In this document: one piece after another, positions 4,301 to 40,406 of the stretch
Layout of the letters: every line of letters begins with the position of its first letter
Numbering within the stretch: position 1 is the first letter of the stretch
Assembly (NCBI GenBank): GCA_018004935.1
Contig: JAGNBF010000071.1
Span: 1-40,406, forward strand
Direction: 5' to 3'
DNA length: 40,406 bases
Source of the DNA: Chloroflexota bacterium
GTDB lineage: Bacteria > Chloroflexota > Anaerolineae > Promineifilales > Promineifilaceae
Program-made: the position numbers and the translations under genes
Notes under the pieces: model-generated
What the model was told of the DNA's origin: nothing
Database searches by the model: none
What the model saw: only the letters and a program-made list of their open reading frames with translations

Positions 4301-4521
4301 CCTTCGCCGTCAATGAAGGGGTGGCCTCAATGGCCTATTCCCCGGATGGGCAACTCCTGGCCGCCAGTACCTTCAACGGCGAGGTCGAAATCATCCATCT
4401 GGCCGAAATCCGCACCATTCAAATTTTGCCCTGGGGCGGGACCGTCGCTTTTTCACCCGATGGAACCTTGCTCGCGGCCGCGTCCTCTGCCGGTATGCGC
4501 GTTTGGGCGGTCAGACCTTAG
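1366..4521 (+). CDS. Ser/Thr protein kinase with C-terminal WD40-like beta-propeller
   Basis: A 1051-residue receptor-type eukaryotic-like kinase. The kinase domain (about residues 10-275) has the glycine loop GRGGMATV at 20-27, the ATP-binding Lys42, catalytic HRDLKPSN at 133-140, DFG at 153-155 and the SPE motif at 179-181, so it should be active. A Pro/Thr-rich linker (275-338) leads to one transmembrane helix (about 341-367), then an acidic Asn/Ser/Asp-rich spacer. The outer domain (about 455-1051) carries repeated AFSPDG, YSPDGQ and SGGEDG blades typical of a WD40 propeller. The kinase should face the cytoplasm and the propeller outside, suggesting sensing of a surface ligand; substrates are unknown. 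The preceding gene ends 51 bp upstream and may be co-transcribed. No clear Shine-Dalgarno precedes this ATG; it was chosen because the kinase fold begins just after it. Confidence 0.9.
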   Translation: MTSDRPPQTIGRYEIRAELGRGGMATVYRAFDPQVHREVAVKLLPRQFTHDSSFRGRFAREAKIVAALDHPAIVPVLDYGEEGDQPYLVMRLMAGGTLTDRLEAGPMPLTDIGRILNRVAPALDAAHSRGAIHRDLKPSNILFDQWGEPYLADFGIVKLTESTIATVSQYSLGTPAYMSPEQIEGKTELDGRSDVYALGVILFEMLSGKRPYEATTPMGLMMQHVNEPIPDIRGRLADLPPDSQLIINKAMAKRREDRYPTATSLATDVAYLAGLPAPTPLPISTQTPLAEPPRTPMTPRPQPTPAPISPTPIDPTQVMAPQKTVTGPPVSQPAAAPRKLPLWVFGIGGMGLLVVLAVIIAGVALLLNNQNGGNEDNAAANNTGNNESVTTENDGSSNNSNATDDSGNDDSDESVSDEPTLEPTPEIPQAAFPVWTLDDVESAFPLTASGFPLPAERLPILPENSTDLIPLAQYGRGTIRDIDYSADGQWIAAAAEEGIYLYQASDLALVWYQEAQDSNVAFHPEGQTLAVADEGDIQLWSVATGELQLTLIDNNQYTGYLLTYSPDGQYVVATNSNNAIQIWSAEGILLQELSDNENRLSDLTFSPDSTQITATSQDTITIWDIESGSISQTLTRAETSFEEVIYLTATTLVAAASQSGIFFWEATDGAFPAEPTQFIAETIPTTGFIAATPDGLMATGIWNTVYLWWAGETEPFYILPSIGGSTIHLAFSPDGTTLLVGSENYVARWRIDGDTPEPIDFLVPHIGDPFDVAFAPDGETIAATSSNGVCIVWESNTGALRFALTNPPQEPSAVMYTPDGDLAVGSFSSATQLWLGDSGQLRFATENEGDFHYILDVAVSADNGWIAAALSEGGITILDRETGEIQQTLAGHTGNVNALTFLPRTDITLLASGGEDGLVNLWQYDGEEFVLLTTYQDAPISINALASDGAYLAAGDDDGTIWFYYLETTDDAANAASGSFAVNEGVASMAYSPDGQLLAASTFNGEVEIIHLAEIRTIQILPWGGTVAFSPDGTLLAAASSAGMRVWAVRP

Positions 4522-4549
4522 TGGGTGTCTAAAAATAACTTCCCGATTT

Positions 4550-4583
4550 AGACCTGACAGGTTTCTGAAAACCTATCAGGTCT
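4550..4583. repeat. Family A palindrome, copy 1
   Basis: Imperfect inverted repeat AGACCTGACAGGTTT / AAACCTATCAGGTCT with a 4-base loop and one arm mismatch, preceded by AAAAATAACTTCCCGATTTA as in the other copies. It lies 29 bp after the kinase stop codon and may act as a 3' RNA hairpin. Confidence 0.8.
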
Positions 4584-4667
4584 GGGAGGAACTCATTTTT
4601 GGACGATTACGTAGGGTTCAGACTTACGTTTTTATGACAAGCCGCACGCCTGGTTTGTCGCCGGAAA

Positions 4668-10919: not shown

Positions 10920-10970
10920 GTAGGGCGATTTGGTAAATCGCCCACGAGACGATTTACCAAATCGTCCTAC
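10920..10970. repeat. Family D long palindrome, copy 1
   Basis: GTAGGGCGATTTGGTAAATC and its complement (ending AAATCGTCCTAC) form a 21-bp stem with a single mismatch and a 9-base loop. Smaller hairpins GCGATTTGGTAAATCGC-type can form within each arm. Related copies at 11042-11082, 18289-18336, 24753-24803 and truncated at 40355-40375. Confidence 0.8.
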
Positions 10971-11153
10971 AAATTTGTAAAGCTGACCTGAACCATGCCA
11001 ACTATAGCAAGCGCAATTTGTCCGGTGCAACACGACTACTATTGGTAAATCGCCCACGAGACGATTTACCAAATCGTCCTACAAATTTGTAAAGCTGACC
11101 TGAACCATGCCAACTATAGCAAGCGCAATTTGTCCGGTGCAACACGACTACTA
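10930..11153. repeat. Tandem direct repeat, 2 x 112 bp
   Basis: Two essentially identical 112-bp units, 10930-11041 and 11042-11153, each starting TTGGTAAATCGCCCACGAGA and ending GCAACACGACTACTA. Each holds most of family D plus the tail AAAGCTGACCTGAACCATGC, which also appears at the right end of the window (40377-40400). The identity between units implies a recent duplication. Confidence 0.9.
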
Positions 11154-11183
11154 AGAGTTCGTAAAAATATAACTTCCCGGTTT

Positions 11184-11217
11184 AGACCTGATAGGTTTCC
11201 GAAAACCTGTCAGGTCT
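11184..11217. repeat. Family A palindrome, copy 2
   Basis: AGACCTGATAGGTTT / AAACCTGTCAGGTCT stem with CCGA loop. It spans the 3' end of the DUF2283 gene: the stop codon of that gene (11210-11212) lies within the palindrome arm. Confidence 0.85.
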
Positions 11218-11392
11218 TGACGGAACTTAATCTTTTACAGACCCTAAGTGCCAGTATCTCAACTCCAACGAGACGCCCCTGTTCATCGAAATCGAAAATA
11301 ACGCCAGGGGACACCTCTTCAGATTCAACAATGGGTGTCTCATCGAAGCGAAAATATAACGCATCGCTCTCGGTATCAATTTTGAGTCTCAT
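11210..11392 (-). CDS. DUF2283 small protein
   Basis: A 60-residue protein of the DUF2283 family, recognisable from MRLKIDTESDALYFRF, GVIFDFDEQGRLVGVEIL. Function of the family is unknown. Its ATG overlaps the TGA of the endonuclease IV gene in an ATGA, so it is translated from the same mRNA. The last nine residues (CKRLSSVKT) and the stop codon are encoded by family A repeat sequence, i.e. the normal C-terminus has apparently been replaced or extended by the repeat. The same repeat edge encodes the end of the cyclase gene at 20513. Confidence 0.75.
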   Translation of the reverse strand: MRLKIDTESDALYFRFDETPIVESEEVSPGVIFDFDEQGRLVGVEILALRVCKRLSSVKT

Positions 11393-17272: not shown

Positions 17273-17296
17273 TAGCCATATCAATTGTATATAAAC

Positions 17297-17390
17297 CACA
17301 GGGAGCCAGGATCACCTGGCTGAGAGGGCAGTTAATGGTACTGCCGACCTGCGAACCTGATACGGATAATACCGGCGTAGGGATGGAACT
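17297..17390 (+). ncRNA. TPP riboswitch aptamer
   Basis: Thi-box aptamer binding thiamine pyrophosphate. Conserved elements visible: GGGAGCC at 17301, the CTGAGAGGGC pyrimidine-binding core (about 17320-17329), a P3a-like GGCAGTTAATGGTACTGCC arm, and the 3' core GCGAACCTGATACGGATAAT leading to ACCGGCGTAGGGATGG. The terminator that follows and the thiamine genes downstream confirm the assignment. GTAGGGATG (17377-17385) at the 3' side of P1 can pair with CACCCCTAC (17406-17414) of the terminator, giving a plausible antiterminator. Confidence 0.95.
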
Positions 17391-17399
17391 CAGAATTAA

Positions 17400-17431
17400 A
17401 AACGTCACCCCTACAATGGGTGGCGTTTTTT
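17400..17431 (+). terminator. Riboswitch-controlled intrinsic terminator
   Basis: AACGTCACCC / GGGTGGCGTT stem (one G-U pair) with loop CTACAAT, followed by TTTT. Placed directly after the TPP aptamer, its formation when TPP is bound should stop transcription before the thiamine genes. Confidence 0.9.
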
Positions 17432-19526: not shown

Positions 19527-20108
19527 ATGTCTCGTTTTCCTGTTTTCACCTTACAGTTACCCTCCTGGGTTGAAACCTTTTTACCTGACCCGGAACAAGT
19601 TTACCCTACCGTTGAGGCGCGGATGCGTCTGGTCATTGCCTTATCCCGCCAGAATGTGATCCAGGGTACAGGTGGGCCATTTGGCGCGGGCATCTTTAAC
19701 CTGGACACCGGTCAATTGTTGGCTCCAGGCATTAACCTGGTCATACCAACACATAGCTCCGTTGCCCATGCCGAAATGGTCGCGTTTATGATCGCTCAAC
19801 AAGTGTTAGGCACGTTTGATTTGGGGGGAACAGGATTACCCCCTTTTGAAATTGTCGCCAGCACCGAACCATGTGCCATGTGTTTTGGAGCAGTTCCCTG
19901 GTCAGGGGTGAAATCTTTGGTTTGTGGAGCACGTGGCGAGGATGCCGAAGCGGTGGGTTTTGATGAAGGGCCTAAAGTGGCAACCTGGTGGCAGGAATTA
20001 GAGAAGCGGCATATTGGTGTGACACGGGATGTTTTGCGTGAGGACGCGGCCGCGATTTTGTCTCTCTACGCCCAAAATGGCCATATTTACAATGCACGCC
20101 AGGGTTAA
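19527..20108 (+). CDS. Nucleoside/base deaminase-fold enzyme in the thiamine cluster
   Basis: A 193-residue zinc-dependent deaminase of the CMP/dCMP and guanine deaminase superfamily. The zinc site is complete: H81-A82-E83 (VAHAEM) and C116/C119 (PCAMC), with GPFGAGIFN near 50-58 as usual upstream strand. Closest in layout to guanine deaminase or tRNA adenosine deaminase-like proteins, but longer at the N-terminus. It begins 16 bp after thiB with GGGAAGGATCC before the ATG, so it is almost surely co-transcribed. A role in pyrimidine or thiamine-breakdown salvage is suggested by context only; ordinary guanine or cytosine deamination is the alternative. Confidence 0.85.
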   Translation: MSRFPVFTLQLPSWVETFLPDPEQVYPTVEARMRLVIALSRQNVIQGTGGPFGAGIFNLDTGQLLAPGINLVIPTHSSVAHAEMVAFMIAQQVLGTFDLGGTGLPPFEIVASTEPCAMCFGAVPWSGVKSLVCGARGEDAEAVGFDEGPKVATWWQELEKRHIGVTRDVLREDAAAILSLYAQNGHIYNARQG

Positions 20109-20226: not shown

Positions 20227-20243
20227 GGTTACATGAGAACTAA

Positions 20244-20304
20244 ATAACTTATTCGCTGGGAGGGGCACGGTCAGGAGACGGGCCACAGAAAAACGGGAAG
20301 TTAT
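20244..20304. repeat. Family C element, copy 1 (uninterrupted site)
   Basis: Terminal ATAACTT (20244-20250) and AAGTTAT (20298-20304) enclose GGGGCACGGTCAGGAGACGG. The left edge GAGAACTAAATAACTTATTCG is the empty counterpart of the site at 37460-37600 where the 111-bp element has inserted. Confidence 0.8.
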
Positions 20305-20338
20305 TCTTGGACAATTACTAAGGGTTTGTAAAAATATA

Positions 20339-20449
20339 GGGTCTTTGGGAATTCAGGGGGTTGACACTAGATGTACGGGCGGGCCTTGTGCCTGCCCAGT
20401 GGGGGGCAACCACAAGGGTTGCCCGTACCCCACGAAACCCCAAAGAACC
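20339..20449. mobile_element. 111-bp MITE (family B), copy 1
   Basis: Ends GGGTCTTTGGG and CCCAAAGAACC are 11-bp terminal inverted repeats with one mismatch. It is bracketed by the perfect 8-bp direct repeat AAAATATA (20331-20338 and 20450-20457). The interior consists of two hairpins, GGGCGGGCCTTGTGCCTGCCC-type and GGGCAACC/GGTTGCCC. It is inserted within the AAAATATAACTTCCCGG leader of a family A element, whose intact version is at 11166-11180. It is non-coding, so must be moved by a transposase in trans. Confidence 0.92.
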
Positions 20450-20469
20450 AAAATATAACTTCCCGGTTT

Positions 20470-20503
20470 AGACCTGACAGGTTTCCGAAAACCTGTCAGG
20501 TCT
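20470..20503. repeat. Family A palindrome, copy 4
   Basis: Perfect AGACCTGACAGGTTT / AAACCTGTCAGGTCT stem with CCGA loop. It is followed within 10 bp by the stop codon of the cyclase gene, as copy 2 is by the end of the DUF2283 gene. Confidence 0.9.
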
Positions 20504-20512
20504 CGACGGAAC

Positions 20513-23500
20513 TTAATCTTTTACAGGCACTAAGTAGGTGTCTAACACCTGTAACCTCTGTTGATAATTGACCGAAGGAGCATGTTGGAGAAGCTGACGG
20601 TAAAGCGCGGCCGCGTTTTCGGCCATTTGTCGCTCTCCCCCTATTTGCCACAAAAGATCATAAAGACGAGCCTGCTGGGCTGGCTCGGTAAATTCCTGAC
20701 ATAATTGGGTAAGTTGGGCCAGGGCGAGAGTGGGTTGGTTTGCGGCCGCGAGCAATCGCGCCGCCAATACTTTCCCCTGGAACAAACTCTCCTGGTCATT
20801 TATTTCCCCGGCAATCGTCATTCCTTCCTCATTCAAAAGCAACGCTTCAGCCAGCTCATCCAGGGCCAACAACGCTTCCGCTTTCTCAATCAGTTGCCAG
20901 GCCAGGTAATATTTCGCCCCCAACTGACGGCACAAAGGAATCGCCTGGTCATAATAAGGCAACGCCCCCTCAATATCTCCCTGCTCCCGGTGCAACTGCC
21001 CCAAATTTCCCAGGCGAATGGCCTGCCCCCGCCGATTCCCCGCTTCCCGGTCCAACCGCAACGCCTGCTGAAAAACATGGAGCGCCTGCTCATATTCTCC
21101 GCGTTGCGAATGTATCAGCCCCATATTACTCAAATTGGCGGCAATACCCGTTTTGCGCCCCAGTTCCCGGTCAATGAATAACGCCTGCCGGTAACAGGCC
21201 AAAGCCTGCTCATAATTACCCAATTTACGGTACGCACTGCCCATATTACCCAACCGAATAGCCATCCCCCGTTTATGCCCAATTTCCTGGTTTACTTGCA
21301 AAGCCTGCCGGTAATAACTCAAGGCCTGTTCATACTGCCCCTGATACCAGTATACGTTGCCCATGTTACCACTATAAACAGCCACCGAAAGCCGATCCCC
21401 CACTTCCTGACTGATATGCCAGGCCTCCCGATAACAGGCAAGGGCACGGTCATAAGCCCCTTGGGCCTCATAGACAATCGCCATACTGCCCAGATTGCGG
21501 GCAATGGATGAAGACTCGTGGGCCAGGCGACTAAAATGCAACGCCTGTTCGTGGTGAAGCAACGCTGGCTCATATTCTCCCCGGTTACGGTAGATAACAC
21601 CGAGCTGGTTCAGCGAATGAGCAATGCCCCGCCCATCCCCCATTTCTTGATAGAGGGTTAGCGCTTGTTGCTGATAAATAAGCGCCTGCTTGTTATCACC
21701 CCGCCGCTGGAGCAGGTTGCTGAGCGCTGTTTGGGCCTCCGCCTGATGCACGCGGGAATGGGCTTGTATGGATAGGTGATGGGCAGTAGTAAAGGCGGAT
21801 TCGGCTTCAGGCCAGCGGCCGGTAAGTAAATGAATTTCCCCCTTGTGGAGCAGAATGGTGAGCAGGTGGAGCAGGTTGTTGTCAGCGCCAGCACCCCCGG
21901 ATTCACTGGATTGGAGAAGCAAGATGAGCCGGTCATAATAATCCAGGGCGGCTTCATTTTGGTATGCTTCACGGGCAAAATCGGCGGCCTGTTCCAGGTA
22001 TTGTGTGGCTTTGTCTATGACACTGGCCTGCTCGTAATGGTAAGCCAGCAGACCCAGGTGGGGGGTCAGATCATGCCTGTAAAGGGTTTCGAGGGCCTGG
22101 GCGGCTAATTGGTGCAGAGCGCGGCGGCGGGTACGGAGTTGCATCTCATAAGCGGCTTCGCGCAAAAGAGTGTGTTTGAAGAGGTAACGAAGTTGGTTGA
22201 GTGAGGACCAGATGGCGGCCTGTTCCGCGGCCGCGATACGTTCCATAACCCCTGGCTCTTGTTCCAACATCGCTACCAGCAATTGCACTTCAAACTCCCG
22301 CCCTAACACCGAGGCCGTCTGCACCACCTGTTTCACTTCTGCCGACAAACGATCCAGGCGGGCAATGAGCAAGGTACGGACATCCGTAGGCAGAGCCGTT
22401 TCCGGCAAAGCAGTCATTACACCTACTCGGCCATCAGCCTGCCGGATCAGGCTTCCCTGCTCCTGTAGGTAAAGCAAAATTTGTTCGGCAAAAAACGGGT
22501 TGCCTTCGGCTCGTTCCACCAATAACTGCACAAGGGAGGGCGCGGCCGCGCTCCCTGTCACCGTATAGGCCAATTCTGCCAACGCCTCCCGGTTCAGTGG
22601 CAATAACTCCAACACCTGATACTCCAACGCCTGGATCGGCTCCTCCTGGCCAGGGCGCATGGTGATAAGAAGGGCAAAGGGGTATGCCTCCACATTGCGG
22701 AGCAGGTGAGGCAAAAAGTGGCTAGATTCAGGGTCTAGCCAGTGACCGTCCTCTAACTGAATGACCAGTGGATGATGCAGGCTTTCGGCTTTAATAAACG
22801 TTTTGAGCGCGTCCAGGGTATTCTCAAACCGGTTTTCGGGAGTGATGGCGGCATAGAGAGAATTGGGCCAGTAAAGGTCAACCAGAGCGGCAATAAAGGC
22901 GCGGCCGCGTTCTAACTCCTGGCGCAGATCGGAGTCGGTTGCGGCCGCGATCAGTTCATCATATTTTTGGTGGAAACGTCGCCCATTCTCTGCCCCATCT
23001 ACACCAGCAACCTGACCCAAATAACCATCCAGAAAATACCGCCACGGATTAAAGGGGTGGTGCAAAATTTGATCCGTCTGGCAACGCGCCCAGGTGATTC
23101 CTAGATTCTTAACCACCGGATGGTGGCGTAAAGCATAAGTAAGACGACTTTTGCCAATACCCGCTTCACCCCGAACCACCATCACTCCGGCATTACGTCC
23201 TTCCCTCAGGGGATGCAAGAAAGAAAGCAGGTGATTTAATTCCGCTTGCCGCCCGGCTAAAGGTGCCTGGTACAACTCTGAAGGGCGGAAGTTATGCAGG
23301 CCCACCAGAGCATAAACCGTTTGCCGCTCACTAAACCCTTTAAATATTAAAGCCTCCTGACGCACCACCGTAAACTGACGTTGGACACGCTGGGCAGTGG
23401 CTTCATCTAGCCAGATACTTCCCCAGGGAGCGGCGGTCATCAGGCGGGCGGCCAGGTTCACCCCTTGCCCGTAACAACTATAATCCTGGCGCAAGGTGGA

Positions 23501-26124: not shown

Positions 26125-26183
26125 AGCTGTACCTTCCGTGATGCTTGATGCGTATTGTATAGACCTTAAGATAATGATTTTGG

Positions 26184-26242
26184 GTACGGGCGGGCCTTGT
26201 GCCTGCCCTGCCACGAGAAGGCAACCACAAGGGTTGCCCTAC
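26184..26242. repeat. Family B core without ends
   Basis: TACGGGCGGGCCTTGTGCCT..GGCAACCACAAGGGTTGCCC resembles the centre of the 111-bp element but lacks the terminal TCTTTGGG / CCCAAAGA and the AATTCAGGGGGTTGACA segment. A decayed or partial copy between coaD and the coiled-coil gene. Confidence 0.7.
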
Positions 26243-26338
26243 AGGCAAAATCTTTTTCTTGAAAACTATAGCGTATGTATGGTGTCGAACAGGCAGATTA
26301 CAACACACACAATTTGTTTGATTATAATGAATTTACAC

Positions 26339-35948: not shown

Positions 35949-36059
35949 GGGTCTTCAGGATTTCGTGGGGTACGGGCAACCCTTGTGGTTGCCCCACACC
36001 GGGCAGGCACAAAGCCAGCCCGTACATCTGGTGTCTACCCCCTGAATTCCCAAAGAACC
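35949..36059. mobile_element. 111-bp MITE (family B), copy 2
   Basis: Inverted orientation relative to 20339-20449. Ends GGGTCTTCAGG and CCCAAAGAACC. It is flanked by the perfect 8-bp direct repeat TTGCTACA (35941-35948 and 36060-36067). Exactly the same length as the copies at 20339 and 37477. Confidence 0.92.
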
Positions 36060-36129: not shown

Positions 36130-36249
36130 GTATCCCACGATTTATGGGTATACTCCAATCGCCCTACACGGTTGCCCAATCATCTGTTGTTTCATACAAT
36201 GACAACCCTTGAAGGCATACTTTTCCCCAAACACCATAACGAGGTAACA

Positions 36250-37422
36250 ATGGCAATCAAAAGTGACCGCTGGATTCGCAAAATGGCCCTGGAACACGGC
36301 ATGATTGAGCCATTTGTCGAAAACCAGGTACGTCAAGGAGTAATCTCCTATGGCGTATCATCCTACGGCTACGACATCCGCGTCGCCGACGAATTCAAAA
36401 TCTTCACCAACGTCTTCTCCGCCATCGTAGACCCCAAAAACTTTGATCCCAAGTCCATGGTAGACTTCAAAGGAGACGTATGTATTGTCCCTCCCAACTC
36501 ATTTGCCCTGGCTCGGACCGTAGAATATTTTCGCATTCCCCGAAGTGTATTAACAATCTGTGTCGGAAAGTCAACCTACGCCCGTTGCTTTCGTGGTGAT
36601 ACCCGTGTGGCTCTCGTAGATGGCACCAGTCCCACCCTCGAAGAAATGGCGCACCGGACAGAAGAGGGCGAAATATTTTGGGGGTATAGCATCAGTGAAA
36701 ATGGGCGTGTAATCGTTACCTTACTAGAGGCCCCACGTTATGTTGGACGCGATAACCTGGTAGAACTACTCCTGGACAATGGTCAGACGATTTTTTGTAC
36801 CCCAGATCATTTGTTTATGCTCAGAGACAGGCAGTGGCAGGCCGCCGGTGAACTTCAACCAGGGACATCCTTAATGCCCCTCTACCGTTCAGTTCAACAT
36901 GGTCATGAAATAGTTTATCAACCCCTTACGGGACATTTACACCCCACCCAGCATCTCGCCAATGAATGGAATTTACGGCATGGCATTCATCATAAACAGG
37001 CCCTTGGGTTTGACCCCGAAGTAGTGTATGCAAAACCCCGCGCCCATATCCCTGAAAACAGCCATACCTTTTCGAGGCAAATGACCGCCAACAATCATAA
37101 AATTATATCCGTGCGTTTACTCGCCGGGGATCATGATGTTTATTGTCTGACCGTTCCTGAAACGGGCAATTTTGCTTTAGAAGCAGGGGTTTTTGTCCAT
37201 AATTGTGGCATTATCGTCAACGTGACCCCATTTGAACCGGAGTGGGAAGGATACGTTACCCTGGAAATCTCCAACACGACCCCTCTGCCTGCCAAAATTT
37301 ACGCTAACGAAGGTATTTCCCAGGTCCTTTTCTTTGAGTCAGATGAAGTGTGCGAAACATCTTACGCCGACCGCAAAGGGAAATATCAAAGCCAAAAGGG
37401 AATTGTTTTGCCTAAGTTGTGA
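36250..37422 (+). CDS. dcd: dCTP deaminase precursor containing a mini-intein
   Basis: A 390-residue precursor from ATG 36250 (GAGG upstream). The host protein, 184 residues after splicing, is dCTP deaminase, making dUTP for thymidylate synthesis: [49 protein letters not shown], then GKSTYAR up to residue 112, and after the intein [29 protein letters not shown] with the catalytic Glu (residue 339 of the precursor), ending [12 protein letters not shown]. The intein (residues 113-318) interrupts the most conserved active-site strand, right after the Arg equivalent to R115 of the E. coli enzyme. The protein is thus inactive until spliced. The upstream in-frame ATG at 36190 is not supported. No GCGGCCGC occurs in this gene. 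Confidence 0.93.
36586..37203 (+). mobile_element. 206-residue mini-intein in Dcd
   Basis: Splicing motifs are complete: block A begins with Cys ([13 protein letters not shown]), block B has TPDH ([10 protein letters not shown] and H three apart), block F is [17 protein letters not shown], and block G is GVFVHN followed by extein Cys. Residues 100-165 between B and F are short and contain no LAGLIDADG motif and no complete HNH site; [20 protein letters not shown] may be a remnant of a lost HNH homing endonuclease. It should therefore splice but not home by itself. Confidence 0.93.
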
Positions 37423-37476
37423 TCAGGACACTAATCTGGTACAGCAAACCATAGGGGAATGAGAACTAAATAACTT

Positions 37477-37587
37477 GGTTCTTTGGGGTTTCGTGGGGTA
37501 CGGGCAACCCTTGTCGTTGCCCCACACGGGGCAGGCACAAGGCCAGTTCCTACATCTGGTGTCAACCCCCTGAATTCCCCAAGACCC
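37477..37587. mobile_element. 111-bp MITE (family B), copy 3
   Basis: Ends GGTTCTTTGGG and CCCAAGACCC. Flanked by the perfect 8-bp direct repeat AATAACTT (37469-37476 and 37588-37595). The joined flanks reconstruct GAGAACTAAATAACTTGTTCG, which is the start of a family C element; the uninterrupted relative is at 20231-20260. Confidence 0.93.
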
Positions 37588-37645
37588 AATAACTTGTTCG
37601 CGGGGAGTGGCACGGTCGGCAACCGGCCACAGCAAATGTTCAAGT
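37588..37645. repeat. Family C element, copy 5 (split by the MITE)
   Basis: GTTCGCGGGGAGTGGCACGG..CGGCCACAGCAAATGTTCAAGT completes the family C element whose first bases lie at 37462-37476. Confidence 0.75.
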
Positions 37646-37657
37646 GAGGCAAAGATC

Positions 37658-39982: not shown

Positions 39983-40093
39983 GAGTCTTTGGGAATTCAG
40001 GGGGTTGACAGCAGATGTACGGGCTGGCCTTGTGCCTGCCCCGTGTGGGGCAACCACAAGGGTTGCCCGTACCTCACGAAACCCCAAAGAATT
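39983..40093. mobile_element. 111-bp MITE (family B), copy 4
   Basis: TCTTTGGG and CCCAAAGA are the same 105 bp apart as in copy 1, and the internal sequence matches copy 1 closely and in the same orientation. The flanks (GTTATTTA and TTTATTTT region) are only loosely similar, so the target duplication has decayed or is absent. Confidence 0.88.
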
Positions 40094-40276: not shown

Positions 40277-40406
40277 CTGGTTAATTATTCAACCATTCAC
40301 GAATTCACCGATTCATTATTTTCTTCCTCTCAACCGAAATGAAACACACCCTTTGCCAAATCGTCCTACAAATTTGTAAAGCTGACCTGAACCATGCCAT
40401 TGATAT

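Follow-up and report, generated by a model that had tools for sequence, protein, structure and literature searches.

A putative ISL3-type MITE nested in older dispersed repeats of a Chloroflexota genome

The window analysed here, a stretch of 40,406 nucleotides, is one contig (C42) of the 8.0-Mb, 229-contig genome assembly of a Chloroflexota bacterium. It carries four copies of a short MITE, assigned below to the ISL3 type, together with elements of two other repeat families, A and C, two of which are interrupted by the MITE. The features concerned are as follows.

20339-20449 (+): MITE copy 1, putative ISL3-type, 111 bp, with ends GGGTCTTTGGG and CCCAAAGAACC
20331-20338 (+): left target-site duplication of copy 1, 8 bp, AAAATATA
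20450-20457 (+): right target-site duplication of copy 1, 8 bp, AAAATATA
20318-20534 (+): family A element with CTAAG...CTAAG ends, left arm split by MITE copy 1 (CTNAG-end scan and joined-flank alignment)
11151-11248 (+): uninterrupted family A copy, which provides the internal empty site of MITE copy 1 (CTNAG-end scan and joined-flank alignment)
4517-4615 (+): second MITE-free family A copy, of a subtype lacking the TA of the insertion site
35949-36059 (-): MITE copy 2, putative ISL3-type, duplication TTGCTACA, outside A and C
37477-37587 (-): MITE copy 3, putative ISL3-type
37469-37476 (+): left target-site duplication of copy 3, 8 bp, AATAACTT
37588-37595 (+): right target-site duplication of copy 3, 8 bp, AATAACTT
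37457-37650 (+), approximate bounds: family C element split by MITE copy 3
20231-20322 (+): uninterrupted family C copy, which provides the internal empty site of MITE copy 3 (left end divergent, boundaries drawn partly by eye)
39983-40091 (+): MITE copy 4, putative ISL3-type, no clean duplication, right flank formed by a family F arm
40317-40351: family F arm; further family F copies lie at C196:127330-127484 and C74:18472-18650

The window also contains a TPP riboswitch at 17289-17400 (+; 69 bits) and, at 36172-37422 (+), a gene whose product resembles dCTP deaminase and contains an intein splicing domain (PF14890). Repeats were counted in a sample of 1.2 Mb, about 15% of the genome, whose densities are biased upward because its contigs were selected for carrying MITE copies, and within which comparisons should be unaffected.

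MITE copy 1 is bounded by a perfect 8-bp duplication, AAAATATA. With the MITE and one AAAATATA removed, its flanks gave an ungapped match to 11149-11249 (95/101 positions, 94%; E 3.9e-41), where the intact family A copy carries AAAATATAACTTCCCGG unbroken at 11164-11180. The first-pass annotation had claimed that copy 1 splits the leader of a family A repeat, which the joined flanks bear out; the intact leader had been placed at 11166-11180, two bases off. A perfect 112-bp tandem duplication (10930-11153) is located immediately ahead of the intact element. The CTNAG-end scan placed the CTAAG ends of the interrupted host at 20318-20322 and 20530-20534, and the first of these is common to the left end of this family A element and the right end of the adjoining family C element. 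The site appears to be made of three layers: a C element, the A element joined to it through the common CTAAG, and the MITE within that A element. As the CTAAG is shared by both elements, the likely order of events is C, then A, then the MITE, with the order of C and A possibly reversed.

Copy 3 had been described as splitting a family C element of which an uninterrupted version exists in the window, and this too was upheld: when joined, its flanks align with the family C copy at 20233-20292 at 86.7% identity over 60 columns and one gap (E 4.4e-15). A better empty-site match for this copy (94%) is present outside the window, at C190:62317-62388. The stretches first quoted in support of the nesting were only 14-17 bp long, which left room for the view that the flanking similarity consists of chance short matches. 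This view was refuted by the full-length alignments, over 101 and 60 columns (E 4e-41 and 4e-15), and by the 50 family A and 104 family C hits in the 1.2-Mb sample, and its probability is negligible.

These comparisons confirm that, at 20339 as well as at 37477, the MITE entered a host repeat that was already present. Since the A and C hosts are older than these insertions, the uninterrupted elements at 11151 and 20231 serve as true empty-site controls from within the window, and the proposed event order with internal controls is substantiated at two loci. The broader statement that families A and C predate the MITE is correct for each locus, where the empty sites demonstrate it, but is not supported for the families as wholes, as both repeat families and the MITE shell have relatives in several further genera of this taxonomic family. 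The reverse nesting, an A or C element splitting a MITE, was not seen, but this says nothing about the order: the CTNAG site used by A/C occurs in only 3 of 90 MITE copies, so that insertion in that direction is hardly possible. A second genome of the genus was not found among the relatives searched, and a search for orthologous flanks via the deaminase gene at 19527-20108 returned only distant relatives and so yielded no strain-level empty site. The internal chronology of mobile elements is obtainable, nonetheless, without a second genome.

Another explanation of the nested arrangement would be that the MITE is a core swapped into older shells by recombination within their arms, with no transposition involved. 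Such exchange does seem to be present in this genome, as family F has the MITE among its several cores, without an 8-bp duplication, and the right flank of copy 4 is the arm of a family F composite. However, each of copies 1 and 3 lies between perfect 8-bp duplications, with its host element preserved to the left and to the right, an arrangement that recombination is not expected to produce. A core swap is therefore contradicted for these two copies and, as a general explanation, is very unlikely; copy 4 may still fit it. The presence of the MITE as the core of family F would explain why copy 4 lacks a clean duplication. Copy 2, located outside A and C, has a perfect one, TTGCTACA.

The 1.2-Mb sample contains 90 near-complete MITE copies, mainly of 111 and 123 bp; these classes are short and have no transposase ORF. 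Perfect 8-bp duplications surround 46 of the 90 copies and a further 18 have duplications with one mismatch, while the same test at random points gave a perfect 8-mer duplication in 35 of 1800 cases (p 8e-45 against 46/90). The duplicated sequences are rich in A+T (74%, versus about 49% for the genome). One copy (C196:78642-78752) is 100% identical to copy 1 and has different flanks, which speaks for recent movement of the element.

Of 52 genomes from the same taxonomic family, 17 have transposase genes of the ISL3 type. Several of these genes are surrounded by ends such as GGTTCTTTGGGATCTCATGGGGTTGACAGCA and GGTTCTTTGGGAATACAAGGGGTACACCC, each matching one of the two MITE ends; the left MITE end agrees at 20-25 of 28 positions and the right one more weakly, at 17-21 of 28. 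At four loci recovered by a PF01610 match (L222, L224, L225 and L247), the best end shares 24-25 of 28 positions with the MITE. Furthermore, the MITE and the ISL3 insertion sequences have the same asymmetry, one terminus carrying GGGGTTGACA and the opposite one GGGGTAC, and an ORF enclosed by such ends encodes a DDE_Tnp_ISL3 domain (E 2e-47). Among these relatives L222 is the sole ISL3 copy with a clean duplication, a perfect 8-bp ATTCTTTT, which is lacking at L223-L226. The transposases of the relatives (L222-L226, L247 and L237) are encoded by two overlapping ORFs split at a conserved A run, e.g. TCGAAAAAAAA, a candidate programmed frameshift.

An ISL3 transposon described earlier, Tn7546, has the inverted repeat GGGTCTTCGGA and generates an 8-bp duplication, AAAATAAG (PMC9782665). 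Both nearly coincide with an end variant of the MITE, GGGTCTTCGGGA, and with its AT-rich duplications, although Tn7546 itself is 3.8 kb long, carries transposase and mercury-resistance genes, and has been reported from staphylococci and other Gram-positive bacteria (PMC9782665). Based on the copy number, the 8-bp duplications, the ends shared with the ISL3 elements of relatives and the parallel with Tn7546, we conclude that the interrupting element is probably an ISL3-type MITE. Like the known MITEs of ISL3 insertion sequences, it is short, non-coding, present in high copy and mostly intergenic, with ISL3 ends and 8-bp AT-rich duplications; it differs from them in that no autonomous partner was found in the assembly and in that its inner 58-bp hairpin core also occurs outside the shell. 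With the terms used, the literature search returned no report of a nested MITE or of an ISL3 MITE from Chloroflexi. The Nezha MITE of cyanobacteria, cited in PMC10969869, is likewise a high-copy element of an environmental bacterium; the likeness is descriptive and no membership is claimed.

MITEs derived from IS256 and IS1595 also make duplications of about 8 bp. These origins were considered, and PF00872 and PF12762 had no match in the genome of this bacterium. An ISL3 transposase is equally absent, by both profile and protein search of the assembly, and it is therefore the ends that decide between ISL3 and IS256/IS1595. Nor did the 1.2-Mb sample contain any element of 0.2-8 kb with MITE ends flanked by a duplication that had no more than one mismatch. 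Assemblies frequently lose multicopy insertion sequences, and the present one consists of 229 contigs. As no ISL3 transposase was found in the assembly, the mobilising enzyme is inferred from the relatives.

The MITE has landed in A and C elements, but the proposal that these families are its landing sites is not supported in the sense of a preference. Two of the four MITE copies of the window lie in A or C elements, whose arms are AT-rich, and this would be expected if the MITE transposase recognised the A/C arms or a hairpin structure. In the sample, however, the A/C superfamily makes up 5.5% of the non-coding DNA and received 5 of 77 insertions, where non-coding sequence matched for local A+T predicts 4.3. 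The duplications, moreover, have AT-richness in common and not an A/C motif. Repeats of any kind behaved similarly: an empty paralogous site of the repeat type was found elsewhere for 34 of 76 insertions (45%), as compared with 254 of 600 random non-coding points (42%, p 0.71) and only 20 of 600 points in coding DNA. When AT-rich non-coding points were used, the proportion was 207 of 600 (34%, p 0.10), and this slight rise in the insertions leaves room for a weak preference for repeats in general. A preference for A/C is, in our estimation, improbable. The MITE nests in repeats because the intergenic space is full of them and because its target is AT-rich, and the rate of two in four is a local excess, which the first-pass annotation had no means of calibrating. 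A pattern that is striking in a single window can thus be the plain product of repeat-filled intergenic space.

Mobile DNA within palindromic repeats is also known from insertion sequences that target REP palindromes and are specific for such repeats (PMC1525189). By that comparison the ISL3 MITE is not repeat-specific, whereas family F, in the same genome, apparently is.

We favour insertion by available space, and consider the following course of events highly probable as a whole. The 111-bp MITE would derive from an ISL3-family insertion sequence and would have been moved by an ISL3 transposase supplied in trans, the enzyme and its source being deduced from relatives. Insertion would involve cutting AT-rich, mostly intergenic targets with an 8-bp stagger. 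Dispersed repeats make up some 40% of the genome's non-coding DNA and the A and C arms are AT-rich, so that some insertions would fall in A/C in proportion to the space occupied; at 20339 and 37477, the A and C hosts preceded the MITE.

The hairpin core of the MITE is not confined to it. The core, GTACGGGC...GCCCGTAC, is seen in ISL3 shells and equally in elements with CTATAG...CTATAG ends, such as that at 26157-26271 of the window. The CTATAG shells carry either this core or a second, unrelated one, and in genomes of the same family the ISL3 shell surrounds another core. Family F, with ends GGGTGTGTTTCA...TGAAACACACCC, is flanked by 9-bp duplications, and these are centred on palindromes, for example GGGCGATTTGGTAAATCGCCC; one of its insertions is centred on the hairpin core of family A, and some of its copies have the whole ISL3 MITE as their own core. 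It apparently targets the centres of palindromic repeats, giving rise to repeat-in-repeat structures. Taken together, these observations tentatively suggest, at somewhat under even chances, that the intergenic DNA of this lineage is combinatorial, with unrelated shells (ISL3-type, CTNAG A/C, CTATAG and F) and interchangeable hairpin cores that might be gained by nested insertion and then amplified jointly with the shell. That unrelated shells have hairpin cores in common would be relevant to the origin of new MITE families.

Several CTNAG-ended elements with different cores also form a head-to-tail chain at L084:8165-8415, in which the CTAAG ends are shared. A 2.25-kb pair of CTNAG arms (C131:8165-10420), considered as an autonomous A/C partner, resolved into two distinct C elements with cellular genes lying between them, and a PF13586 protein in this role was not found.

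Finally, the palindrome GCGGCCGC is highly iterated, with 79 sites in the window and 1680 in the 1.2-Mb sample, for which the G+C content predicts 23.6 and a third-order Markov model 92. The sites are located predominantly in the coding mask (91%). In five genomes of the same family the palindrome is nearly absent (0-3 per 16-48 kb). It is reminiscent of the cyanobacterial HIP1 (PMC4390886).
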